Origin: Streptacidiphilus sp. PB12-B1b
GTDB taxonomy: Bacteria > Actinomycetota > Actinomycetes > Streptomycetales > Streptomycetaceae
NCBI RefSeq assembly: GCF_014084125.1
Contig: NZ_CP048405.1
Coordinates: 4,712,001 to 4,776,000 of the forward strand
Direction of reading: 5' to 3'
Length of the DNA: 64,000 bases
This document shows, one piece after another, positions 28,348-46,392 of this stretch (position 1 is its first letter; every line of letters begins with the position of its first letter). The position numbers and the translations under genes are program-made. Under the pieces are notes generated by a model, which was not told the DNA's origin, made no database searches, and was given only the letters and a program-made list of their open reading frames with translations.

Positions 28348-30525
28348 TCAGCCTGCGGCGAGGTCGCCCAGGCGGCGGTGGCGGGCGACGCGCTCGGCGA
28401 GGCGTGCTGCCTCGGGTTGGGTTGCCAGGGCGGTCAGGGCGGTGCTGACGGCCTGGCCGACCCGGGTGCAGAACGCTGCCGGTTCCTCGGCCGCGTCGGG
28501 GTACTCGGGCAGCACCTGGTCCACCAGGCCGACGGCGGCCAGGTCGTGGGCGCCGATGCCCTGGGCCCGCGCCAGCTCGGCCGCGTGGCCGCCGTCGCGG
28601 TGGACGATCGCGGAGGCGCCCTCCGGCGGCAGCGGCGCCAGCCAGGCGTGCTCGGCGGCCAGTACCCGGTCGGCGGGCAGCAGGGCCAGCGCGCCGCCGC
28701 CGGAACCCTGGCCCAGCAGCACCGCCAGCACCGGACTGCGCAGCGCCACCAGCGTGGACAGGCAGTGGGCGATCTCCAGCGCCACGCCGTCGAGTTCGGC
28801 CTCCGCCGAGAGCTCGGCCCCGGCCGTGTCCACCACCGTGACCAGCGGCAGCCCCAGCTGCTCCGCCATCAGCGCGGTACGGCGGACGGCGCGCAGGTCG
28901 GCGGCGGTGAAGGGGCGTTCCGCCCCGGCCCCGGCACGCTGCTGCCCGACCAGTACGGCGGGCCGCCCGTCGAACACGGCCAGCGCCCGCACCAGCGCGC
29001 CCGCCCCGCCCCCGGGCACGCCCAGCAGCAGCGCGCCACCGTCGGCGTACCGCAGCACTTCCCGCACCCCGGGCCGCTCCGCCTTCCGCGTCCGCAGCAC
29101 CGCCCCCCACGCATCCCCCGTCAGGCCCCGGCCCTCGGCGGAACACGCGGACGCCGCGAGAGCGGGCGACTGGGCCCGCTCATCCGCTACCGACGCGGGG
29201 GACTCACCGGTCCGGGCGGTGAGGTCGGCCGGGGCTGCGCCGACCTCGCAGGCCGGTCCGTCTGCGGGCATCGGAGCCAGGGGTTCGGGCTGGGGCGCAG
29301 CCATTCCAGCGGCGACGTCGGCCGGGGCTGCGCCGGACGCTCCGGTCCGGGCGGTGGCTCGGTGGGATTCGGCGGGGGACGGCTGCGGGGGCGGGGCGGT
29401 GGCGCGCCCTGCGGTGAGGACGGGGAGGGCGCGGAGCAGGAGGTCGCGCAGGTGGTCGGGGGCGACCACCGCGTCGATCAGGCCGCGGGCGGCCAGGGTC
29501 TCGGCGCGTTGCACCTCGGGTGCCAGTGGTTCGCCGCGCAGCTCCTCGTAGACCCGGGGGCCGAGGAAGCCGAGCCTGGCCCCCGGTTCGGCCAGCACCA
29601 GGTGGCCCAGGGTGCCCCAGGAGGCGAAGACCCCGCCCATGGTGGGGTTGCGCAGGTAGGTGAGGTACGGCAGTCCCGCGGCCTGGTGCGCCTGGACCGC
29701 GGCGGTGACCCGGACCATGCACAGGAAGGCGGCCGTGCCCTCCTGCATCCGGGTGCCGCCGGAGACCGGCAGGGCCAGCAGGGGCAGCCGTTCGGCGGTG
29801 GCCCGCTCGACCGCGCGGGTGATCCGCTCGGCGGTGGCTACGCCGATCGAGCCGCCGAGGAAGCCGAACTCGGACGCCACCAGGGCCACCGGGCGGCCGC
29901 CGAGCAGCCCCTGACCGGTGGTCACCGCCTCGTCCCGGCCGGTGCGCTCGCGGGCCCGGGCGAGCGAGGCCCGGTAGGCGGGGTCGGCGGGCCGGGCCGT
30001 CACCGGCCGGTCCCAGCAGCGGAAGCTGCCCGGGTCGAGGATGCGGGCGATCAACTGCCCGGCGTCCAGGCCCGAGACGCCCGCCGCGACGGAAGCCGCG
30101 CCCGCCGGGCCGGAGGCCGCGCCCGCCACGTCGGAGGCCGGACCCACCGGGCCGGAAGCCGGACCCACCGCGCTGGAGGCCGCGCTCACCGCATCGAAGG
30201 CTGGACCCGCCGGGCCGGAGGCCGCGCTCACCGGGCCGGAAGCAGGACTCCCCGCGTCGGAGACCGCACCCACCGGGCCGGAAGCCGGACCCACCGCGCC
30301 GGAAGCCGGACCCACCGCGCCGGAGGCCGCGCTCACCACGCCGGAGGCCGCGCTCACCACGCCGGAGGCCGGACCCGCCACGCCGGAGGCCGCGCCCGCC
30401 GGGCCGGAGGCCGCGCTCACCGGGCCGGAAGCCGCACCCGCCGCGCTGGAGGCCGGACCCGCCGCGCCGGAGGCCGCGCTCACCACGCCGGAGGCCGCGC
30501 CCGCCGGGCCGGAGGCCGCGTTCAT
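28348..30525 (-). CDS. Acetyl/acyl-CoA carboxylase carboxyltransferase with heptad-repeat N-terminus
   Basis: Up to 725 residues. Residues 5-144 are twenty 7-residue repeats of the form Ser-Gly-x-Ala/Val-Gly/Ser-Ala/Pro-Ala. The core starts near LIARILDPGSFRCWDRPV. The beta-type half has GRPVALVASEFGFLGGSIGVATAERI, LPVSGGTRMQEGTAAF and NPTMGGVFASW. An Ala/Pro linker of about 90 residues follows. The alpha-type half has VLRYADGGALLLG, VDTAGAELSAEAE and LLGQGSGGGALALLPADR. It should transfer carboxyl from biotin to an acyl-CoA, yet no biotin carboxylase or carrier gene is near. The ATG at 30525 has no ribosome site; a GTG inside the repeats could be the true start. Confidence 0.75.
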   Translation of the reverse strand: MNAASGPAGAASGVVSAASGAAGPASSAAGAASGPVSAASGPAGAASGVAGPASGVVSAASGVVSAASGAVGPASGAVGPASGPVGAVSDAGSPASGPVSAASGPAGPAFDAVSAASSAVGPASGPVGPASDVAGAASGPAGAASVAAGVSGLDAGQLIARILDPGSFRCWDRPVTARPADPAYRASLARARERTGRDEAVTTGQGLLGGRPVALVASEFGFLGGSIGVATAERITRAVERATAERLPLLALPVSGGTRMQEGTAAFLCMVRVTAAVQAHQAAGLPYLTYLRNPTMGGVFASWGTLGHLVLAEPGARLGFLGPRVYEELRGEPLAPEVQRAETLAARGLIDAVVAPDHLRDLLLRALPVLTAGRATAPPPQPSPAESHRATARTGASGAAPADVAAGMAAPQPEPLAPMPADGPACEVGAAPADLTARTGESPASVADERAQSPALAASACSAEGRGLTGDAWGAVLRTRKAERPGVREVLRYADGGALLLGVPGGGAGALVRALAVFDGRPAVLVGQQRAGAGAERPFTAADLRAVRRTALMAEQLGLPLVTVVDTAGAELSAEAELDGVALEIAHCLSTLVALRSPVLAVLLGQGSGGGALALLPADRVLAAEHAWLAPLPPEGASAIVHRDGGHAAELARAQGIGAHDLAAVGLVDQVLPEYPDAAEEPAAFCTRVGQAVSTALTALATQPEAARLAERVARHRRLGDLAAG
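30094..30513. repeat. 21-base minisatellite, 20 imperfect units
   Basis: A 21-base unit centred on GCCGGAGGCC is repeated 20 times without frame change. On the minus strand it encodes Ser-Gly-x-Ala/Val-Gly/Ser-Ala/Pro-Ala heptads at the start of the carboxyltransferase. On the plus strand it is also open, reading Pro-Glu-Ala-containing heptads. It is too regular and too short for a CRISPR and has no spacers. Confidence 0.85.
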
Positions 30526-30638
30526 CGGGCCGCGCCCGCGGCGGTACCGGTCTGCCGCCGCCAGCGGCCGGGGCCATCGTCACCTGTACGGCCGCCGGGC
30601 CGCACCCGCTCCCGCTCCAAGGCATCCACGCGATCAAG

Positions 30639-30780: not shown

Positions 30781-31869
30781 ATGAATGCTTCACCTGCGAC
30801 AGCGGTCGGCGTCTCCGGTGCGACGGCTCTGACGGCCGAGGAGGAGTCGCCGATCCACGTCCTGTGGATCAACGCCGGCCTGAGCTGCGACGGCGACTCC
30901 GTCTCGTTGACCGCGGCCACCCAGCCGAGCATCGAGGAGATCGCGCTCAGCGTGCTGCCCGGCCTGCCCAAGATCGCCGTGCACTGGCCGCTGATCGACT
31001 TCGAGTGCGGCCCGGTGCAGGGCGCGGACAACTTCATCGAGTGGTTCTTCAAGGGCGAGCGGGGCGAGATCGACCCCTTCGTCCTGGTCATCGAGGGGTC
31101 GATCCCCAACGAGGCGATCAAGCCCGAGGGTTACTGGTGCGGTTTCGGCGACAACCCGGAGACCGGCCAGCCGATCACCACCAGCGAGTGGATCGACCGG
31201 CTCGCCCCCAAGGCGCTGGCCGTGGTGGCCATCGGCACCTGCGCGACCTACGGCGGCATCCACGCCATGGCCGGGAACCCCACCGGAGCCATGGGTGTGC
31301 CGGACTACCTGGGCTGGGACTGGAAGTCCAAGGCCGGCATCCCGATCGTCTGCGTGCCGGGCTGCCCGGTCCAGCCGGACAACTTCTCCGAGACCCTGGT
31401 GTACCTGCTGTACCAGGCCACCGGGCAGGCCCCGATGATCCCGCTGGACGACCAGCTGCGTCCCTCCTGGCTGTTCGGCGCGACCGTGCACGAGGGCTGC
31501 GACCGGGCCGGCTACTACGAGCAGGGCCAGTTCGCCACGACCTACGACTCCCCCAAGTGCCTGGTGAAGCTGGGCTGCTGGGGGCCGGTGGTGAAGTGCA
31601 ACGTGCCCAAGCGCGGCTGGATCAACGGCGTCGGCGGCTGCCCGAACGTCGGCGGCATCTGCATCGCCTGCACCATGCCCGGGTTCCCGGACAAGTTCAT
31701 GCCGTTCATGGACGAGCCCCCCGGCGGCAAGGTGTCCAGCACCGCGAGCACGGCCTACGGCTCGGTGATCCGCAAGCTGCGGTCGATCACCGCGCACACC
31801 GTGGACCAGGAGCCGAAGTGGCGGCAGCGGGGCGAGAAGCTCGCCACCGGCTACCGGCCGCCGTGGTGA
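30781..31869 (+). CDS. hhyS: Group 1h [NiFe]-hydrogenase small subunit
   Basis: 362 residues. It carries the iron-sulfur clusters that take electrons from the active site of HhyL. Cluster ligands visible are C36 with D39 (LSCDGDSV, where classical enzymes have Cys-x2-Cys), C154 (GTCATYGG), C195 (CVPGCPVQPD), and the distal set in EGCDRAGYYEQ, SPKCLVKLGCWGPVVKC and GGCPNVGGICIACTMPGFPD. The Asp-for-Cys change is the hallmark of the oxygen-tolerant actinobacterial enzyme. There is no Tat signal and no membrane anchor, so the enzyme is cytoplasmic or membrane-associated through partners. GAGGAGG precedes the ATG. It heads the hydrogenase operon. Confidence 0.95.
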   Translation: MNASPATAVGVSGATALTAEEESPIHVLWINAGLSCDGDSVSLTAATQPSIEEIALSVLPGLPKIAVHWPLIDFECGPVQGADNFIEWFFKGERGEIDPFVLVIEGSIPNEAIKPEGYWCGFGDNPETGQPITTSEWIDRLAPKALAVVAIGTCATYGGIHAMAGNPTGAMGVPDYLGWDWKSKAGIPIVCVPGCPVQPDNFSETLVYLLYQATGQAPMIPLDDQLRPSWLFGATVHEGCDRAGYYEQGQFATTYDSPKCLVKLGCWGPVVKCNVPKRGWINGVGGCPNVGGICIACTMPGFPDKFMPFMDEPPGGKVSSTASTAYGSVIRKLRSITAHTVDQEPKWRQRGEKLATGYRPPW

Positions 31870-31948
31870 CCGCCGCCCGCTAGCGCTGCCCCACCCAGCA
31901 GACCCCACCACCCGCACCACTGGCATCGAGAAGGGCACGGCAGAAACG

Positions 31949-33733
31949 ATGGCACCGACGACGAAGGCGGCCGGAGACGGCAGCGGCCTGGTAGAGATGG
32001 CCTGGGACCCGATCACCCGGATCGTGGGCAGCCTCGGCATCCACACGAAGATCGACTTCAAGCAGAAGAAGGTCGCCGAGTGCTACAGCACCTCGTCGGT
32101 CTTCCGCGGCTACAGCGTCTTCATGCGCGGCAAGGACCCCCGCGACGCGCACTTCATCACCAGCCGCATCTGCGGCATCTGCGGCGACAACCACGCCACC
32201 TGCTCGGTGTACGCGCAGAACATGGCGTACGGGGTGAAGCCGCCGCACCTGGGTGAGTGGATCATCAACCTGGGCGAGGCCGCCGAGTACATGTTCGACC
32301 ACAACATCTTCCAGGAGAACCTGGTCGGGGTCGACTACTGCGAGCGGATGGTCAAGGAGACCAACCCCGGCGTGCTGGAGCTGGCCGAGCGCACCCCGGC
32401 CCCGCACGCCGGGGACCACGGCTACCGGACCATCGCCGACATCATGCGGTCGCTCAACCCGATCGAGGGCGAGTTCTACCGCGAGGCGCTCCAGGTCAGC
32501 CGGTACACCCGGGAGATGTTCTGCCTGATGGAGGGACGCCACGTGCACCCCTCCACGCTCTACCCCGGCGGTGTGGGCACCATCGCCTCGGTGCAGCTGT
32601 TCACCGACTACCTCAGCCGGCTGATGCGCTACGTGGAGTTCATGAAGCGGGTGGTGCCGCTCCACGACGACCTGTTCGACTTCTTCTACGAGGCGCTGCC
32701 CGGGTACGAGGAGGTCGGCCGCCGCCGGGTGCTGCTCGGCTGCTGGGGCGCGCTCAACGACCCCGAGTACTGCGACTTCACCTACCGCAACATGACCGAC
32801 TGGGGACGGCGGATGTTCGTCACCCCCGGCGTCGTGGTCGACGGCAAGCTGGTCACCAACGACCTCACCCAGATCAACCTGGGCATCCGCATCCTGCTCG
32901 GCAGCTCGTACTACCAGGACTGGGAGGGCAAGGAGCAGTTCGTCACGCACGACCCGCTCGGCAACCCGGTCGACCCGCGCCACCCGTGGAACCAGCACAC
33001 CATCCCCGCGCCGCAGAAGCGCGACTTCGACGACAAGTACAGCTGGGTGATGTCCCCGCGCTGGTTCGACGGCAAGGACCACCTGGCGCTGGACACCGGC
33101 GGCGGCCCGATCGCCCGGCTGTGGTCCACCGCGCTGTCCGGGCTGGTCGACTTCGGCTACGTCAAGGCCACCGGCCACAGCGTGGTCATCAACCTGCCGA
33201 AGACCATGACCAAGCCGGAGACCACCTTCGAGTGGAAGATCCCGCAGTGGAGCAACGCGCTGGAGCGCAACCGCGCCCGCACGTACTTCCAGGCGTACGC
33301 CGCCGCCGCGGCGCTGCACTTCGCCGAGGAGGGCCTGGCCGAGGTCCGCGCCGGGCGCACCCAGACCTGGGAGAAGTTCGAGGTGCCGGACGAGGGCCTC
33401 GGCGTGGGCTTCACCGAGGCGGTGCGCGGCGTGCTGTCGCACCACATGGTGATCCGCGACGGCAAGATCGCCAACTACCACCCGTACCCGCCGACCCCGT
33501 GGAACGCCAGCACCCGCGACACCTTCGGGACGCCCGGCCCGTACGAGGACGCGGTGCAGAACACTCCGATCTTCGAGGAGAACTCCCCGGAGAACTTCAA
33601 GGGCATCGACATCATGCGGGCCGTGCGCAGCTTCGACCCCTGCCTGCCCTGCGGCGTGCACATGTACGTCGGCGGCGGCAAGACCGTGCAGACCATGCAC
33701 GTGCCCACCGGACTGAGCGGGATGGGCGGATGA
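31949..33733 (+). CDS. hhyL: Group 1h [NiFe]-hydrogenase large subunit
   Basis: 594 residues holding the Ni-Fe(CN)2CO site. Motif L1 is RICGICGDNH (C75, C78) and L2 is DPCLPCGVHMY (C565, C568). After H571 a 23-residue tail ending GLSGMGG should be removed by the maturation protease encoded at 37149 once nickel is in place. The subunit oxidises H2, and group 1h enzymes use atmospheric traces during starvation or sporulation. The start codon is 79 bases after hhyS, with AGAAGG upstream. The end overlaps the next start (ATGA), beginning a chain of coupled accessory genes. Confidence 0.96.
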   Translation: MAPTTKAAGDGSGLVEMAWDPITRIVGSLGIHTKIDFKQKKVAECYSTSSVFRGYSVFMRGKDPRDAHFITSRICGICGDNHATCSVYAQNMAYGVKPPHLGEWIINLGEAAEYMFDHNIFQENLVGVDYCERMVKETNPGVLELAERTPAPHAGDHGYRTIADIMRSLNPIEGEFYREALQVSRYTREMFCLMEGRHVHPSTLYPGGVGTIASVQLFTDYLSRLMRYVEFMKRVVPLHDDLFDFFYEALPGYEEVGRRRVLLGCWGALNDPEYCDFTYRNMTDWGRRMFVTPGVVVDGKLVTNDLTQINLGIRILLGSSYYQDWEGKEQFVTHDPLGNPVDPRHPWNQHTIPAPQKRDFDDKYSWVMSPRWFDGKDHLALDTGGGPIARLWSTALSGLVDFGYVKATGHSVVINLPKTMTKPETTFEWKIPQWSNALERNRARTYFQAYAAAAALHFAEEGLAEVRAGRTQTWEKFEVPDEGLGVGFTEAVRGVLSHHMVIRDGKIANYHPYPPTPWNASTRDTFGTPGPYEDAVQNTPIFEENSPENFKGIDIMRAVRSFDPCLPCGVHMYVGGGKTVQTMHVPTGLSGMGG

Positions 33734-34332
33734 GCGCCGCAGCGGAGACCGCCGTACCCCCCGCGCCCGCCGCCGCGCGGGCGCGGGCCGCCGACGCCGA
33801 GCAGGCCGGGCGGCGGGTCGAGGAGATCCTCGAGCGGCTCGCCGCCGCCGGCGACCCGGCGGCCGGAGCCGCCGCCGAGGAGCTGGTGCGCACCCTGATG
33901 GACTTCTACGGCGCGGGCCTGGCCCGGGTGGTGGACCTGCTCGGCTCCCCGGCCGCGCAGCAGTCCGGCGGCGCGCCGCTGGAGCAGCTGCTCGGCGACG
34001 AGCTGGTGGCCGGGCTGCTGGTGCTGCACGACCTGCACCCGGAGGACCTGCCCACCCGGATCGGACGGGCGCTGGACGGCCTGCCCGGCCGCCCGGTGGA
34101 GCTGGTCGGCTTCGACGAGGCGACCGGCGTGCTGCGGGTGCGCTCGGCCAATCCGGGCGGCTGCGGCTGCCCGAGCACCAACGCCGCGACCCGGCAGGCG
34201 GTCGAGTCCGCCCTGGCCTGCTTCGCGGCGGAGGTGGAGGCGGTCGAGCTGGAGCCGCCGGGAGGCGCCGGGCAGCCGACGCTGCTGCAGATCACCGCCC
34301 GGCCCGGCCTCGCCCCGGCGGAGGCGCCGTGA
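33730..34332 (+). CDS. Nfu-like iron-sulfur carrier domain protein of the hydrogenase operon
   Basis: 200 residues. An Ala/Arg/Glu helical N-terminal half (ARAADAEQAGRRVEEILERL..., VRTLMDFYGAGLARVVDLL) precedes a NifU/Nfu C-terminal-like domain: PVELVGFDEATGVLRVRSANPGGCGCPST, then a helix with C164. Canonical Nfu domains carry Cys-x2-Cys; here it is Cys-x-Cys (C145, C147). The protein may deliver or hold an iron-sulfur cluster for HhyS, or be an electron carrier. The start overlaps the hhyL stop and the stop overlaps the next start, so it is made in step with the enzyme. The role is inferred from position. Confidence 0.75.
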   Translation: MSAAAETAVPPAPAAARARAADAEQAGRRVEEILERLAAAGDPAAGAAAEELVRTLMDFYGAGLARVVDLLGSPAAQQSGGAPLEQLLGDELVAGLLVLHDLHPEDLPTRIGRALDGLPGRPVELVGFDEATGVLRVRSANPGGCGCPSTNAATRQAVESALACFAAEVEAVELEPPGGAGQPTLLQITARPGLAPAEAP

Positions 34333-35003
34333 GCACTGCGGACACCCGTCAGGCCTGGCCGACCAGGCCGGGCCGGCGCCCGGCCCCGACCGGGCTGCGC
34401 CGATTCGTCGCACCCGCCCCGGAACAGCAGGAGCGCTGCGAGCTGTGCGGCGCCCCGGTCGCCGAGGCCGGACACCGCCATCTGGTGGACGTCGAGAAGC
34501 GGGCGCTGAGCTGCGCCTGCACCCCGTGCGCCCTGCTGTTCGACCGGCAGGGCGCCGCCGGGGGGCGGTTCCGCACCGTCCCCGACCGCTACCTCTGCGA
34601 CCCCACGCACACCCTGGACGACGCCGCCTGGGAGCAGTTGCAGATCCCGGTCAGCGTCGCCTTCTTCTTCCGCAACGCCGCCCTGGACCGGCTGGTCGCG
34701 CTGTACCCCAGCCCGGCCGGGGCCACCGAGAGCGAGCTGGACTCCTCGACCTGGCAGTCCGTCCTCGGCGGCACGCCGCTGGCCGGGCTGCTCCAGCCGG
34801 ACGTGGAGGCGCTGCTGCTGCACCGCACCGAGGGCCGGTACGCGTGCTACCTGGTGCCGATCGACGTCTGCTACGAGCTGGTCGGGCGGATGCGCCTGCA
34901 CTGGCAGGGTTTCGACGGCGGGGCCGAGGCCCGCGCGGACCTGGCGGCGTTCTTCGCGCACGTCTCCGGGCGGGCCCGGGAGCTGCGGGGGGCCGACCAG
35001 TGA
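34329..35003 (+). CDS. DUF5947 metal-binding protein of the hydrogenase operon
   Basis: 224 residues. A proline/arginine-rich start leads to a cysteine cluster: CELC (C37, C40), then CACTPC (C62, C64, C67), with H49 and H51 between. This could hold zinc or an iron-sulfur centre. The rest is an alpha/beta domain (GRFRTVPDRYLCD, LQIPVSVAFFFRNAALDRLVALYPSPAGATE, ACYLVPIDVCYELVGRMR). I recognise it as DUF5947, which travels with group 1h hydrogenases and has no assigned function. GTG start overlapping the Nfu-like stop and GTGA at its end keep it in the coupled chain. Confidence 0.72.
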   Translation: MSTADTRQAWPTRPGRRPAPTGLRRFVAPAPEQQERCELCGAPVAEAGHRHLVDVEKRALSCACTPCALLFDRQGAAGGRFRTVPDRYLCDPTHTLDDAAWEQLQIPVSVAFFFRNAALDRLVALYPSPAGATESELDSSTWQSVLGGTPLAGLLQPDVEALLLHRTEGRYACYLVPIDVCYELVGRMRLHWQGFDGGAEARADLAAFFAHVSGRARELRGADQ

Positions 35004-35686
35004 CCGAGTTCTCCTTCGTCTGCACCGGCGTCCGCGCCGACCGCTACGCGGCCGGGCCGACGCTGCTGTTCCGGCTGCGGATCACCGCCTCCGCCGACAC
35101 CCGGGTGCACGCGCTGGCGCTCCGCTGCCAGTTGCGGATCGAACCGGCGCGGCGCACCTACGACCCGTCCGAGGCCGAGGGCCTGGCGGACCTCTTCGGC
35201 GAGCGCGACCGCTGGGGCAGCTCCATGCAGCCGGTGCAGTTCGCCCAGGTCTCGCTGGTCGTCCCCGGGTTCACCGGGGAGACCGAGGTGGAGCTGCCGG
35301 TGCCGTGCAGCTACGACCTGGACGTCGCGCCGACCCGCTACTTCCACGCGCTGGAGGGCGGCGAGGCGCCGCTGCTGCTGCTGTTCTCCGGCACCGCCTT
35401 CACCGGGCCCGGCGGCTTCCAGGTCGAGCCGGTGCCCTGGGACTGCGAGGCGGCGTACCGGATGCCGGTCGCGGTCTGGCGGGAGATGGTCGAGCAGCAC
35501 TTCCCCGGCTGCGGCTGGCTGCGGCTGGACCGCGACACCATGGACGCCCTGCTCGCCTACCGCTCCCAGCGGGCGCTGCCCTCCTGGGAGGCGACCGTGC
35601 AGGCGCTGCTGGACCCGCCCCCGCACGACCCGGCGGCCCCCGCCGGGCCCGGGCTCCCGCTCACCGCCGAAAGGACGGCCCCGTGA
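35000..35686 (+). CDS. DUF6084 protein of the hydrogenase operon
   Basis: 228 residues, with no signal peptide, membrane helix or metal motif. It begins TEFSFVCTGVRADRYAAGPTLLFRLRITAS and has FAQVSLVVPGFTGETEVELPVPCSYDLDVAPTRYFHALEGGEAPLLLLFSGTAF. This beta-rich pattern is like an immunoglobulin or C2-type sandwich. The C-terminus is helical (ACW-poor; MVEQHFPGCGWLRLDRDTMDALLAYR). I recall it as DUF6084, known only from these operons. The GTG overlaps the preceding stop and its own stop overlaps the next GTG. A structural or scaffolding role for the hydrogenase complex is a guess. Confidence 0.68.
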   Translation: MTEFSFVCTGVRADRYAAGPTLLFRLRITASADTRVHALALRCQLRIEPARRTYDPSEAEGLADLFGERDRWGSSMQPVQFAQVSLVVPGFTGETEVELPVPCSYDLDVAPTRYFHALEGGEAPLLLLFSGTAFTGPGGFQVEPVPWDCEAAYRMPVAVWREMVEQHFPGCGWLRLDRDTMDALLAYRSQRALPSWEATVQALLDPPPHDPAAPAGPGLPLTAERTAP

Positions 35687-37152
35687 CGACGTCCGTGCTC
35701 ACCCCCGAGATCGAGACCCGGTTCGCCGCCGCCCGGCAGGTGGCGGACGCCGTCCTGTTCGAGGGCTACGTGCTGTACCCGTACCGCGCCTCCGCCGCCA
35801 AGAACCGGCTGCGCTGGCAGTTCGGCGTGCTGGTCCCGCCCGCCTGGGGCGCGGACAGCGGCGAGCACGCCTTCCAGCGCACCGAGTGCCTGATGGAGCC
35901 CCGGGCCGAGGCCACGCTCTTCGTGGAGCTGCGCTTCCTGCACGCCCAGCGGCGCACCGTCCAGCGGGCCACGCCGGGCGGCGGCTACGAGACCGTGGCC
36001 GAGCTGGACCTCGCCGACCGGGTGCTCACCCCGTGGGACGAGGGGGTCGAGGAACGGGTGCAGCTGTCCGTCCCGATCGCCGAACTCGCCTCCGGGGCAA
36101 AGGAACTGACGTTCAGTCGGCCGGTCCGCGAGGAGACCGAGACGGTCGCGGACGAGCAGGGGCGGACGGTCGGTCGGCTGCTGCGCCGCCGGGAGGAGGT
36201 GCGCGGGCTGATCCGGCTGACCGCCGCCGACGTGCCCGGGCCCTACCTGGTGCAGCGGCTGACGGCGGTGGTGGAGAACACCAGCGGCTGGGAGCCGCAG
36301 CACACCGGCGCGGACCGGGAGGCGGCCCTGCCGCGCTCGCTGGTCTCCGCGCACCTGATGCTGGGCCTCAGCTCCGGTTCGTTCCTGTCCATGGCCGACC
36401 CGCCGGAGTGGGCCAGGGGAGCCGCCGCGGGCTGCGAGAACCTGCACACCTGGCCGGTGCTGGCCGGGGAGGCCGGGCGTCCGGACGTGGTGCTGTCCTC
36501 CCCGATCATCCTGGAGGACCACCCGGCCATCGCCCCGGAGAGCCCGGGCGCGCTGTACGACGCGACCGAGATCGACGAGATCCTGGCCCTGCGCACGGCC
36601 GCCCTCACCGACCAGGAGAAGCGCGAGGCCAGGGGCACCGACGACCGGGCGGCCGCGGTGATCGACCTGGCCGACTCCATGCCGCCGGAGGTGCTGGAGC
36701 GGCTGCACGGCGCGGTCCGGGCGCTGCGCGAGATCACCGACCCGGCGGCCCCGGCCCCCGTGTCCGGCCCCGACGGCAGCGGCCCGGCCGGGAGCACCGG
36801 ACAGGACTGGGACTGGAACGACTCCTTCGGCCCGCTGGCGCCGGACACCCCCTGGTGGGATCCGGAGAGCGACCGCAGCGTCGATCCGGCCCGGGACCGG
36901 GTGCTGATCGACGGCCGCCACATCGGCGCCGGCAGCCGGGTGCAACTGCGCCCGGGGCTGCGCCGCACCGACGCCCAGGACCTCTTCCTGCACGGCCGCA
37001 ACGCGCTGGTGGAGGCGGTACTGCACGACGTCGACGGCGGGGTGCACCTGGCCGTCACGGTCGAGGGCGATCCGGGCGCGGACATCCGCCGCGAGCAGGG
37101 GCGCTTCCTCTACTTCCAGCCGGACGAGGTCGCCGTGCCGGAGGACGAGTGA
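35683..37152 (+). CDS. Uncharacterised 489-residue protein of the hydrogenase operon
   Basis: 489 residues. The N-terminal two thirds are conserved-looking and beta-rich: ADAVLFEGYVLYPYRASAAKNRLRWQFGVLVPPAWG, FQRTECLMEP, SVPIAELASGAKELTFSRPVRE, SLVSAHLMLGLSSGSFLSMADPPEWA, and VVLSSPIILEDHPAIAPESPGALYDATEIDEIL. This is followed by helical GTDDRAAAVIDLADSMPPEVLERLHGAVRALRE. After a Pro/Gly linker a C-terminal domain (DWDWNDSFGPLAPDTPWWDPE ...) carries VLIDGRHIGAGSRVQLRPGLRRTDAQDLFLHGRNALVEAVLHDVDG. No known catalytic motif is visible. It is locked into the hydrogenase chain by GTGA overlaps at both ends. Function unknown. Confidence 0.7.
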   Translation: MTTSVLTPEIETRFAAARQVADAVLFEGYVLYPYRASAAKNRLRWQFGVLVPPAWGADSGEHAFQRTECLMEPRAEATLFVELRFLHAQRRTVQRATPGGGYETVAELDLADRVLTPWDEGVEERVQLSVPIAELASGAKELTFSRPVREETETVADEQGRTVGRLLRRREEVRGLIRLTAADVPGPYLVQRLTAVVENTSGWEPQHTGADREAALPRSLVSAHLMLGLSSGSFLSMADPPEWARGAAAGCENLHTWPVLAGEAGRPDVVLSSPIILEDHPAIAPESPGALYDATEIDEILALRTAALTDQEKREARGTDDRAAAVIDLADSMPPEVLERLHGAVRALREITDPAAPAPVSGPDGSGPAGSTGQDWDWNDSFGPLAPDTPWWDPESDRSVDPARDRVLIDGRHIGAGSRVQLRPGLRRTDAQDLFLHGRNALVEAVLHDVDGGVHLAVTVEGDPGADIRREQGRFLYFQPDEVAVPEDE

Positions 37153-37778
37153 ACGCCGCACCCGCCGCCGCACCCGCAGGCCGGACGCTGGTGGCCGGCG
37201 TCGGCAACATCTTCCTCGGCGACGACGGCTTCGGTGTGGAGGCGGTGCGCGCCCTGGCCGCCGGACCGCTGCCGGAGCAGGTGGAGGCGGTGGACGTGGG
37301 CGTGCGCGGCGTCCACCTCGCCTACCAACTGCTGGACGGCTACGACACCTTCGTCCTGCTGGACGCCACCGCACGCGGCGGCGAACCGGGGACGCTGTAC
37401 CTGATCGAGGTCGGCGCCCCCGACGCGGACCCGGCTCCCGGCGGCGCCCCGACCGCTCCCGTCGCCTCACCGCAGCAGCCGCTGCTGGACGGGCACCGGA
37501 TGTCCCCCGACTCGGTGCTGGCGCTGCTGGGCACCCTGTGCGCCGGAACCGGCGGCAGCCCGCCCCGGCGGACCGTGGTCGTCGGCTGCGAACCGGCCGA
37601 CCTGGAGGAGGGCATGGGGCTCAGCCCCCAGGTGGCCGAGGCGGTGCCGGTCGCCGTCCGGATGGTCCGCGGGCTGATCGGAACCCCCGGGCCGGACGGC
37701 GCGGCCGTTGCCGACGCAACCGACGACGAGCGGTGCGAACCCGCGCCGCGAACCGATGAGAGGACCCCAGCATCATGA
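37149..37778 (+). CDS. [NiFe]-hydrogenase maturation protease
   Basis: 209 residues of the HyaD/HybD/HoxM family. The N-terminus shows LVAGVGNIFLGDDGFGVEAV; the Asp/Glu/His ligands that sense nickel in the large subunit are expected at DDGFG, the VDVGVRG region and DGHRMSP. It should cleave HhyL after H571 when the metal centre is complete. A flexible Pro/Ala insert lies at about residues 96-116, and the C-terminal 30 residues are an acidic tail beyond the family core. Start GTG overlaps the previous stop; the stop overlaps the start of the 34-residue gene. Confidence 0.85.
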   Translation: MNAAPAAAPAGRTLVAGVGNIFLGDDGFGVEAVRALAAGPLPEQVEAVDVGVRGVHLAYQLLDGYDTFVLLDATARGGEPGTLYLIEVGAPDADPAPGGAPTAPVASPQQPLLDGHRMSPDSVLALLGTLCAGTGGSPPRRTVVVGCEPADLEEGMGLSPQVAEAVPVAVRMVRGLIGTPGPDGAAVADATDDERCEPAPRTDERTPAS

Positions 37779-37879
37779 AGAAGCTCATCTTCGGCGGAGC
37801 GGCCCTGGCCGTGGTCTGCGCCGTCACCGCGCAGGTGCTGCCGGACATCCGGCGTTACCTGCGCATCCGCTCCATGTGA
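37775..37879 (+). CDS. DUF6893-like 34-residue protein
   Basis: 34 codons starting at an ATG that overlaps the protease stop (ATGA). The peptide has a Lys-Lys start, one hydrophobic helix (LIFGGAALAVVCAVTAQVL) and a basic end (DIRRYLRIRSM). It fits the small DUF6893 family as I remember it: a single-pass or peripheral membrane peptide. As the last member of the coupled hydrogenase chain it might anchor the enzyme at the membrane. No other membrane helix is encoded in the chain, which makes that idea attractive. Function unproven. Confidence 0.7.
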   Translation: MKKLIFGGAALAVVCAVTAQVLPDIRRYLRIRSM

Positions 37880-38010: not shown

Positions 38011-38409
38011 ATGCACGAGATGTCCATCGCGCTGGCCGTCGTCGGCCAGGTGGAGGAGGCGGCGCAGGCCGCCGGTGCCACCGCCGTCCGGTCGGTCCGG
38101 CTCCAGGTGGGCGAACTCGCCGGAGTGGTACCGGACTCGCTCGCCTTCTGCTTCGAACTGGCCTGCGCCGGAACGCTGTTGGAGGGCTGCGAGCTGGTCG
38201 CCGAGCCCGTACCGGCCCGGGCCAGGTGCGAGCCGTGCGCCGACGAGTGGGCCGTGGGCATGCCGCCCGAGCTGTGCTGCCCGGCCTGCGGCACGGCCGC
38301 CGCGGAACTGCTCTCCGGCCGCGAGCTGCAGATCGCCGACGTGCAGTGGCAGGACGGCCCGGCGCCCGCCCCCGCCCCCTCCCGCGAACCGATCCACCAG
38401 GAGCGCTGA
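38011..38409 (+). CDS. hypA: Hydrogenase nickel incorporation protein HypA
   Basis: 132 residues. The invariant N-terminal MHEMSIA contains the nickel ligand His2. The zinc site is C73-x2-C76 and C90-x2-C93, with an extra Cys at 89. The C-terminus has the usual ELxIxDVxW-like end followed by a proline-rich tail. HypA works with HypB to place nickel in HhyL. GGAGGGAA precedes the ATG. It begins the hypABFCDE block, three bases before hypB. Confidence 0.93.
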   Translation: MHEMSIALAVVGQVEEAAQAAGATAVRSVRLQVGELAGVVPDSLAFCFELACAGTLLEGCELVAEPVPARARCEPCADEWAVGMPPELCCPACGTAAAELLSGRELQIADVQWQDGPAPAPAPSREPIHQER

Positions 38410-44314: not shown

Positions 44315-44477
44315 GTCGGGCGGGTGGGGCGGGGCGGAAATAGGATGGAATGGCTGAGTGCTGCTCGGTTCGGGCCCGGTGCGGGCGCGGGCCGGTCGGT
44401 TGGGGAGCCCCTGGGGCCGACTCCGGGCAGGTGACGGGGAGGAGGACGCCGGGGGTTCGACGCACCTCGGAGGGTCG

Positions 44478-45365
44478 ATGACCCGACGCCATCCCGTTAG
44501 TGCCGACGACCTGCTGAGCGAGCTGGGACGGCTCACCGCCCAGGCGCTGGAGCGCGCCGAGTTCCAGCAGGCCCGGGTGGAGCTGGCCGAGGCCCTCCAG
44601 CGCGGGCTGCTGCCGGGCGCGCTGCCGCAGCTGCCGGGGCTCCGGACCGCCGCCCGCTACGCGCCCGCCCGGCACGGTCTGGACATCGGCGGCGACTGGT
44701 ACGACGGCTTCGCGCTGCCGGGCGGCTCGCTGGGCTTCTCCATCGGCGACGTCCAGGGCCACGACGTGGAGGCGGCGGCCTTCATGGGGCAGGTCAGGAT
44801 CGTGCTGCGGGCGGTGGCGGCCACCGCCGCCGATCCGGGGGAGGTCCTCAGCCGGGCCAACGACCTGCTGCTCTCGATGGACTCCGCCCTCTTCGCCACC
44901 TGCAGCTTCCTGTGCTTCGACCCGGTCGCCTGGGAGCTGTCGGACGCCCGGGCCGGCCATGTGCCGGCCGTCTGGGCCACCGCGGACGGCCGCAGCGGCA
45001 TCGTCCAGGACGAGGGCGGCCTGCCGATCGGCATCCTGCCGGGCGAGGGCTACCCGGTGACCCGGCACCGGCTGCCGCAGCCGGGGGCGTTCGTGCTGCT
45101 GACCGACGGGGTGGTCGAGGGCCCCGCGTTCCCGATCGAGGCCGGGCTGGAGCAGGTGGCGCAGGTGGTCCGGGCCGGGGTGGGCGGCGGCGCCGGGGCA
45201 GACCCGGCGCAGCTGGCCGCCGAGGTGATCAAGGTGGCCGACCTCACCGGGCACACCGACGACGCCGCGGTCCTGGTCCTGTGCCACGACGCACCGCACG
45301 ACGCACGGCCGGACGTACCGCCCGACGCACCGCCCGACGCGGCCTCGGGGCCCGGCGCGGGGTGA
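44478..45365 (+). CDS. PP2C/SpoIIE-type serine phosphatase
   Basis: 295 residues from an ATG preceded by GGAGGG. A short N-terminal coiled segment (LGRLTAQALERAEFQQARVELAEALQRGLLP) leads to the SpoIIE/RsbU domain: DIGGDWYDGF, FSIGDVQGHDVEA, LLLTDGVVEGP-like and LTGHTDDAAVLVL hold the metal-binding aspartates. Such enzymes dephosphorylate anti-anti-sigma factors. No sensor domain is present, but the next gene encodes a MASE1 membrane sensor without an output domain, so the two may form one split receptor. A C-terminal Asp/Ala/Pro repeat follows. Confidence 0.83.
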   Translation: MTRRHPVSADDLLSELGRLTAQALERAEFQQARVELAEALQRGLLPGALPQLPGLRTAARYAPARHGLDIGGDWYDGFALPGGSLGFSIGDVQGHDVEAAAFMGQVRIVLRAVAATAADPGEVLSRANDLLLSMDSALFATCSFLCFDPVAWELSDARAGHVPAVWATADGRSGIVQDEGGLPIGILPGEGYPVTRHRLPQPGAFVLLTDGVVEGPAFPIEAGLEQVAQVVRAGVGGGAGADPAQLAAEVIKVADLTGHTDDAAVLVLCHDAPHDARPDVPPDAPPDAASGPGAG

Positions 45366-45384
45366 CAGGCGGGGGCCGCTGCGC

Positions 45385-46392
45385 GTGTCACGGCCGGTGT
45401 CGGCCGCCGGTCGTTGTCTCATGGCTGCTGTGCTGCGCTACCAGGAACTCCCGCGTCCGGTCAGGACAGGGCTCCTGGTCGTCGCGGTCGCCGCCGGCTA
45501 CTTCGCCGCCGGCCGGCTCGGCCTGCTGCGGCAGGTGGTCGTGGACGGGGCCCGGGTGACCCCGCTGTGGCCGCCGACCGGCATCGCCCTGGTCTGCCTG
45601 CTCACGCTGGGGCTGCGGATCTGGCCCGGCATCGCGCTGGGCGAGCTGCTGGTCATCGTCTCCATCGGGCCGTTCGGGCCGTCGTCGGTGGCGATCGTGG
45701 CCGGCAGCACCCTGGCGCCGGTCTGCTCGTACCTGCTGCTGCGCCGCGCGGGCTTCCGGATCGAGCTGGACCGGCTGCGGGACGGGGTGGCGCTGGTCTT
45801 CCTCGGCGCCCTGTGCGGCATGCTGCTGAGCGCCACCGCGGGCAGCTCGGCCCTGGTGCTGGACGGGTCGCTGCCGCTGAGCCAGTTCTGGAACACCTGG
45901 TGGCCGTGGTGGGCCGGGGACGCCATGGGCGTGCTGGTGGTGGCGCCGCTGCTGCTGGTGGTGCTCACGGTACGGCTGCAGCGGGGCGTGGGCGCGGCCC
46001 GCTGGGCGGAGGGCGCGCTGGTGCTGACCGGCACCGCCTTCCTCACCGTGCTGGTCACCCGCACCACGCTCGACCTGCTGTTCCTGGTCTTCCCGCTGCT
46101 GATCTGGTCGGCCATCCGGTTCCAGCTGGTGGGCGCGGTGCTGTCGGTGCTGCTGGTGTCGGTGCTGGTGATCGGGGCGGCCAGGGAGGGCACCGGCCCG
46201 TTCGAGCACCAGAGCACGGTCGGCATCATGGTCACCCTGCAGGCACTGAACGGCACCGCGGCGCTGACCACGCTGCTGCTGGCGGCGGTGGTCACCGAGC
46301 GCCGGAACACCTATCTGAAGATCGAGCAGGCATGCCAGGCGCTGACCGAGGTGGTGGCCCGGCTGGCCCACGGCGACGAGCCGGAGGACTGA
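45385..46392 (+). CDS. MASE1-domain membrane protein without output domain
   Basis: Up to 335 residues with about nine transmembrane helices. MASE1 features are VTPLWPPTGIALVCLLTLGLRIWPGIALGELLV, WWAGDAMGVLVVAPLLL and LLFLVFPLLIWSAIRFQLVGA. MASE1 is normally the membrane sensor of a histidine kinase, cyclase or phosphatase, yet here the protein ends after a short helix (ERRNTYLKIEQACQALTEVVARLAHG). It lies 19 bases after the PP2C gene. GTG at 45385 has a G-rich site upstream; ATG at 45421 is an alternative without one. Confidence 0.8.
   Translation: MSRPVSAAGRCLMAAVLRYQELPRPVRTGLLVVAVAAGYFAAGRLGLLRQVVVDGARVTPLWPPTGIALVCLLTLGLRIWPGIALGELLVIVSIGPFGPSSVAIVAGSTLAPVCSYLLLRRAGFRIELDRLRDGVALVFLGALCGMLLSATAGSSALVLDGSLPLSQFWNTWWPWWAGDAMGVLVVAPLLLVVLTVRLQRGVGAARWAEGALVLTGTAFLTVLVTRTTLDLLFLVFPLLIWSAIRFQLVGAVLSVLLVSVLVIGAAREGTGPFEHQSTVGIMVTLQALNGTAALTTLLLAAVVTERRNTYLKIEQACQALTEVVARLAHGDEPED

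Follow-up and report, generated by a model that had tools for sequence, protein, structure and literature searches.

The 64,000-nucleotide window analysed here (positions 4712001-4776000 of the single-contig, 7.67-Mb genome of Streptacidiphilus sp. PB12-B1b) carries a complete, ordinary operon for a [NiFe]-hydrogenase of the high-affinity group 1h; the operon type is known, and this is a new instance of it. The small- and large-subunit genes, hhyS and hhyL, are followed by genes for an Nfu-like protein (in the position of HhyE), a DUF5947 protein, a DUF6084 protein, a 489-residue protein (p489), a maturation protease and a 34-residue DUF6893 microprotein. This accessory block is a group-1h-specific module that travels with hhyL. 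Judged from the sequences, the chances are evenly balanced that its parts work together as follows. HhyE and DUF5947 would serve the iron-sulfur side, in cluster assembly or electron relay, and DUF6084 and p489 would assist the catalytic dimer specifically, as assembly factors or scaffold proteins. The microprotein would be the membrane tether of the cytoplasmic enzyme: its helix would lie in the bilayer, and the conserved C-terminal tail, on the cytoplasmic side, would bind either the enzyme or one of the scaffold proteins; electrons would thereby reach the quinone pool.

High-affinity hydrogenases, group 1h among them, drive the main sink of atmospheric H2, and how they are joined to the respiratory chain is considered unsettled (PMC6883350; PMC7174314). 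The operon being known, the survey reported here narrows the candidates: it counts against a general electron path through the Nfu cysteines, directs attention to the one conserved metal-type site, that of DUF5947, and offers a conserved microprotein as a candidate anchor open to direct testing. If the anchor proposal is true, group 1h enzymes are held by a microprotein that several genome gene tables do not list.

Distribution and gene order of the accessory block

Co-occurrence with the enzyme was surveyed in 396 genomes of the phylum, which are not independent samples (genomes and loci are given by our own G and L labels). Matches to hhyL at E ≤ 1e-50 were found in 56 genomes; the 40 with at least 65% identity, fragments included, were taken as group-1h-like, and the remaining 16, with only 37-46% identity to hhyL, were counted as other hydrogenases. 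DUF5947 is encoded in 38 of the 396 genomes, 36 of them group-1h-like; the corresponding numbers are 37 and 33 for DUF6084, 39 and 35 for the p489 family, and 36 and 27 for DUF6893. All other-hydrogenase genomes except G216 (15 of 16) carry none of DUF5947, DUF6084 and p489. Fisher p-values are tiny, but they treat related genomes as independent.

The original idea of an accessory module dedicated to the enzyme is thus supported: in the 396 genomes these families were not found free of the enzyme, apart from three contig ends, the draft genome G290 and one truncated orphan p489 in the same genome as the window. Carriers without hhyL are G189 and G371, which encode all three families, and G216 and G290, which encode DUF6084 and p489; the loci of G189, G371 and G216 are cut off by a contig end. 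The orphan p489 (L037:6684-7610, equal to G000:C1:4294683-4295609) is 60% identical to the operon copy over 280 residues, has mostly lost the N-terminal EGYxLYPYRxSAxKNRxRW motif and adjoins DUF6879 genes. Group 1h genomes without DUF6084 comprise G128, G171 and G369, the contig-end cases G299 and G317, and the damaged G107 and G184. The hhy locus of G107 survives as fragments only; in G184 (L172:11752-13642) hhyL is interrupted near residue 322 and continues into hypE, a junction that is either an internal deletion or an assembly join. A similar break is seen in L130, a broken locus of fragments with DUF6084 running into hypE.

The operon is laid out in the window as follows:

30781..31869 (+) hhyS, group 1h [NiFe]-hydrogenase small subunit, 362 residues
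31949..33733 (+) hhyL, large subunit, 594 residues, with the group 1h motifs TSRICGICGDNH and SFDPCLPCGVH
33730..34332 (+) Nfu-like protein, 200 residues, short-form HhyE orthologue by position, CxC
34329..35003 (+) DUF5947 protein, 224 residues, metal-type site C37 C40 H49 H51 C62 C64 C67
35000..35686 (+) DUF6084 protein, 228 residues
35683..37152 (+) p489, 489 residues, without a Pfam family
37149..37778 (+) hydrogenase maturation protease, 209 residues, TIGR00072 at 106 bits
37775..37879 (+) DUF6893 microprotein, 34 residues, a single hydrophobic helix with the conserved C-terminal tail PDIRRYLRIRSM
38011..38409 (+) hypA, followed by hypB, hypF, hypC, hypD and hypE, until about 44250

Both large-subunit signatures of group 1h, L1 TSRICGICGDNH and L2 SFDPCLPCGVH (PMC10080006), are present in the hhyL translation. 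The best solved relative of hhyL is the 5aa5 large subunit (1093 bits; next match, 164 bits), and identity to the large subunit encoded on pHG1 of Cupriavidus necator is 77.7%. The small subunit has no RR within residues 1-40 and no membrane-helix hydropathy stretch. Pfam scores are above threshold for DUF5947 (250.6 bits) and DUF6084 (321.4 bits; cut-off 25 each), for DUF6893 (51.4 bits against a cut-off of 24.6) and for the protease (HycI, 46.1 bits; TIGR00072, 106 bits against a cut-off of 47.45). The Nfu-like protein, encoded directly 3' of hhyL, scores 18.5 bits with NifU, under the cut-off of 27, and its Mycobacterium chimaera counterpart scores 74.2 bits. As had been noted from the sequence, the classical partners are missing: no cytochrome b, Rieske or ferredoxin family was matched among the nine scanned proteins from hhyS to hypA. 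Promoter and terminator scans gave 0 promoter-like sites and 1 terminator-like site, which is chance level, and PADLOC gave no match for three proteins. Upstream of hhyS, an acyl-CoA carboxylase-like gene on the minus strand contains a repetitive low-complexity stretch (window 30041-30540); downstream of hypE lie genes for a SpoIIE-type phosphatase and a MASE1 sensor (window 44358-46389).

The four-base overlaps described from hhyL onward were confirmed at all six junctions, down to the peptide; a gap of 79 bases separates hhyS from hhyL. Their conservation was assessed in the best 80 of 536 relatives from a scan of genome contigs; these 80 loci were chosen by their DUF5947 and are all Streptomycetaceae-like by title, except two records titled Actinobacteria bacterium. 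The exact order hhyS-hhyL-nfu-DUF5947-DUF6084-p489-protease-peptide-hypA is kept in 67 of them; five of the other 13 start at DUF5947 with the contig start, and the remainder are split or have pieces missing. In-frame 4-base overlaps were counted at testable junctions: hhyL-nfu, 70 of 75; nfu-DUF5947, 73 of 75; DUF5947-DUF6084, 80 of 80; DUF6084-p489, 77 of 78; p489-protease, 75 of 78; and protease-peptide, 41 of 76. The annotated overlaps in C. necator are 1, 4, 8, 4 and 4 bases, and hhyL and nfu of M. chimaera do not overlap; overlap coupling is conserved in Streptomycetaceae-type loci and looser in these two organisms. The same gene order is found on C. necator pHG1 and on plasmids of Methylocystis, M. 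chimaera and Kitasatospora, and block order is kept in Actinomycetota, one betaproteobacterium and one alphaproteobacterium, the breadth outside the phylum resting on plasmid records of two organisms.

The DUF6893 microprotein

By hydropathy, the peptide is the only membrane-type protein among the eight from hhyS to the peptide: its maximum over 19 residues is 2.21, against 1.45 or less for the other seven. DUF6893 occurs in 41 copies in its 36 genomes, and 36 of the 41 lie, by coordinates, in hhy or hyp clusters. In-cluster sites without hhySL in view are found in G150, G195, G205:C61 and G269 (contig end); that of G150 (L157:9293-9912) is a decayed hhy locus, with hyp genes, protease and peptide around fragments of hhyS and p489. 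The matches in G214 and G262 are weak and fall inside long frames. Among the 37 genomes with DUF6084, 31 have a DUF6893 match and G264 has a further evident weak copy; those without a match include G042, where the site is at a contig edge, and G182, which has a truncated p489 gene and no protease at the locus. Four of the 80 loci gave no peptide match with a single-sequence model: L112 and L154 (contig ends), the broken L130, and L136, in which a pattern search finds one. In most loci the peptide adjoins the protease or p489. Its place varies, after the protease in Streptomycetaceae and between p489 and the protease in M. chimaera and genus g4, a variation that rules it out as the leader of a single gene.

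The peptide is also encoded in C. necator (L003:11658-11759), M. chimaera (L004:10973-11092) and Methylocystis (L005:11391-11489). The PLSDB gene table, which is stated to be incomplete, lists no gene at these three plasmid sites, except that 13 bases are shared with p489 in M. chimaera. The peptide pattern, written after the peptides had been seen, gave 0 matches in 556,711 bases shuffled by plain base shuffling. Substitution ratios (nonsynonymous to synonymous, dN/dS) were estimated from 35 ungapped Streptomycetaceae peptides among 56 matched from model position 1, the window included. They are 0.22 for the tail (residues 23-34) and 0.80 for the helix (residues 2-22), and P23, D24, R27, Y28 and M34 are invariant in the 35. 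A generic membrane helix joined to a tail under constraint is what a tether would be expected to show. The tail is predicted to be cytoplasmic from its positive charge only. Longer peptides whose tail differs (E[LFI]PxLxRExRIWRM, followed by an extension) are found in G128, G171 and S. cattleyicolor, whose hhy clusters are of a type without DUF6084 (see below); the altered tail looks as if it had co-diverged with its partner. No peptide was found in G369, of the same type.

With its conserved tail and neighbourhood, the membrane peptide is more promising than first thought, and it is the best candidate tether for a group 1h enzyme. Group 1h enzymes are reported to associate with membranes, with no anchor known. 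The group 1h enzyme of Methylacidiphilum SolV is described as having no transmembrane helix, no signal peptide and no known anchor, and its membrane activity exceeds its soluble activity 2.5-fold; the authors suggest an unknown partner and tie membrane association to high affinity (PMC7174314). In Mycobacterium smegmatis, activity is cited as mainly in the membrane fraction (PMC4767420). We tentatively propose, at somewhat less than even confidence, that DUF6893 is the missing group 1h anchor, of about 34 residues, whose nearly invariant tail would dock the enzyme at the membrane and help to give it its high apparent affinity, and that groups 1l and 1m may use related or unrelated short transmembrane proteins likewise. 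No literature on DUF6893 was found in open-licence papers, and a search of such papers for the three DUF names together matched only antibiotic-cluster literature.

Soluble accessory proteins and alternative explanations

DUF5947 is the only accessory protein with a metal-type site in every full-length copy read. It had been described as a five-cysteine protein, but eight cysteines are counted in the translation; C37, C40, H49, H51, C62, C64 and C67 are kept in all 40 aligned copies, and the strict CxxC/HxH/CxCxxC pattern is found in 125 of 128 rows, among which some loci were fetched twice and from which matches starting past profile position 45 were left out. One copy whose spacer is longer, and one copy truncated by its contig that entered the count twice, make up the three exceptions. 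With seven Cys/His ligands kept, this protein is more promising than first thought. The site may be of the iron-sulfur, iron or zinc kind. Sequence and profile searches of the PDB gave no match for the protein, and its sole outside match is a weak zinc-finger resemblance (zf-RING, E 0.016, below cut-off).

The Nfu-like protein has fared differently. The CxxC in the NifU domain and the two C-terminal CxxC of M. smegmatis HhyE are absent from the protein encoded here, which has CxC and no counterpart of the C-terminal CxxC/CxxC domain seen in M. chimaera HhyE; shortened HhyE forms have also been described (PMC6883350). Across 41 loci, 27 Nfu proteins combine CxxC with the C-terminal CxxC pair and 4 have CxxC without that pair; CxxC is missing from 10 (the window, C. 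necator, Methylocystis, Kitasatospora, G023, G352, G128, G171, G369 and G140). The motif in 75 Streptomycetaceae-type copies is CxC in 70 and CxxC in 1, with a single Cys in the other 4, and the cysteine pair is absent in C. necator and Methylocystis. Since these cysteines are not conserved, Nfu makes a poor general electron conduit, and a conduit of this kind is unlikely as a general mechanism. The statement that only the protease has a textbook role also needs correction: the Nfu-like gene occupies the place of HhyE, and deletion of hhyE in M. smegmatis removes the in-gel activity of Hhy, which complementation restores, and lowers H2 uptake 8.4-fold, equal to the loss of hhyL (PMC6883350). 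Of the idea that the accessory proteins form a conduit or scaffold, the dedicated module stands, the Nfu conduit is not supported, and DUF5947 and the peptide come forward.

For the remaining two proteins, PDB sequence and profile searches gave nothing convincing (best E-values, 0.087 for p489 and 0.46 for DUF6084), and Pfam searches over 39 members of the p489 family gave no consistent match. In several lineages p489 is represented by two adjoining frames of about 340 and about 100 residues; it therefore consists of a core and a detachable C-terminal domain. No relationship was detected between DUF6084 and the p489 family (probability 0.3%) or between DUF5947 and DUF6084 (probability 0.2%).

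Several observations weigh against a module built around a peptide tether. In the draft genome G290 (75% complete), DUF6084, p489 and the peptide occur away from a contig end and with no hhyL; the 941 bases 5' of its DUF6084 gene (L167:1-941) hold an unrelated frame and neither DUF5947 nor Nfu, and this locus, an exception to the co-occurrence, is rearranged or chimeric. A second hhy cluster type of Streptomycetaceae (L038, L039, L040 and L170, with hhyL 71-74% identical), found in G128, G171, G369 and S. cattleyicolor pSCATT, lacks DUF6084, so this protein is not needed by every group 1h enzyme. In this type p489 lies upstream of hhySL (G128, G171) or directly before hhyL (G369, with no hhyS found within 19 kb). 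Three DUF6893 copies lie away from hhy and hyp genes: two in G189, on two short contigs (L159, L160) where no such genes were found, and one in G092 (L164:9045-9140), about 3.6 kb upstream of hhyS on the opposite strand. No recognisable peptide adjoins the protease in genomes G100, G103 and G124. The C. necator enzyme is reported to be cytoplasmic and of low affinity (PMC7174314), yet the peptide is encoded there. Finally, the DUF5947 site could be structural zinc.

Two alternatives concern the first electron acceptor. DUF5947 might itself carry electrons from HhyS to the membrane, a proposal once made for PHG067 of C. necator; MSMEG_2717, a relative of PHG067, was named as an electron-acceptor candidate (PMC6883350), and by gene order DUF5947 would be the counterpart of both. 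This role, favoured by the universal metal-type site, is possible but somewhat doubtful, as the same ligands and the zf-RING likeness would suit zinc and one draft genome, G042, has a repeat-rich stretch, possibly an assembly fault, where DUF5947 is expected. That HhyE itself takes electrons directly from the hydrogenase, as suggested for M. smegmatis, is decidedly unlikely. The loss of Hhy staining in the deletion strain and the 27 loci with the full cysteine set speak for it; the loci without CxxC or the C-terminal pair and the CxC or single-Cys copies of Streptomycetaceae speak against it, and the failure of an artificial acceptor to rescue the hhyE deletion fits assembly better (PMC6883350).

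The other two alternatives concern maturation and regulation. The soluble accessory proteins may be maturation factors only, with HhySL passing electrons directly to quinone as in Huc and the peptide alone perhaps touching the membrane. The C. necator large subunit has been solved (5aa5), in an entry that presumably holds none of the accessory proteins, which we count in favour of this explanation, and Huc, in which HucS and HucL form an oligomer with the scaffold HucM, reduces menaquinone internally (PMC10017518). We hold this explanation possible but somewhat doubtful; against it, HhyL, HhyS and HhyE reportedly co-localised on native gels, in work that PMC6883350 cites. The peptide could also be a regulator, for instance of a respiratory complex or of the protease, rather than an anchor. 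Small membrane proteins are often regulatory, and the three extra copies outside the hhy/hyp block would agree with such a role; with 36 of 41 copies in hydrogenase gene clusters, at shifting positions within the same block, we regard it as unlikely.

Comparison with known systems

A close known relative is the actinobacterial-type hydrogenase operon on pHG1 of C. necator H16, around PHG064-070. It has the same order of small subunit, large subunit, NifU, DUF5947, DUF6084, large hypothetical protein and protease, with a DUF6893-like peptide after the protease, as here. It differs in that its Nfu lacks a cysteine motif, hypF comes next instead of hypA, and the enzyme is reported as cytoplasmic and low-affinity (PMC7174314). 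The Hhy system of M. smegmatis, compared here from papers, has HhyE (MSMEG_2718) as the Nfu-like gene of its structural operon; its CxxC and two C-terminal CxxC are both absent from the Nfu-like protein of the window (PMC6883350).

The group 2a hydrogenase Huc offers a functional comparison, as its dedicated non-catalytic subunit HucM links a cytoplasmic hydrogenase to the membrane (PMC10017518). HucM is a tetrameric coiled-coil tube of 188 residues and the DUF6893 peptide a single helix of 34; compared by length only, the peptide is not a HucM-like stalk. Short membrane proteins are also found in the clusters of sister high-affinity hydrogenases, namely HylTM1-5 of group 1l, encoded between the small and large subunit genes, and the single-transmembrane proteins of group 1m, of 82-92 residues, the comparison being by description only (PMC9561532).

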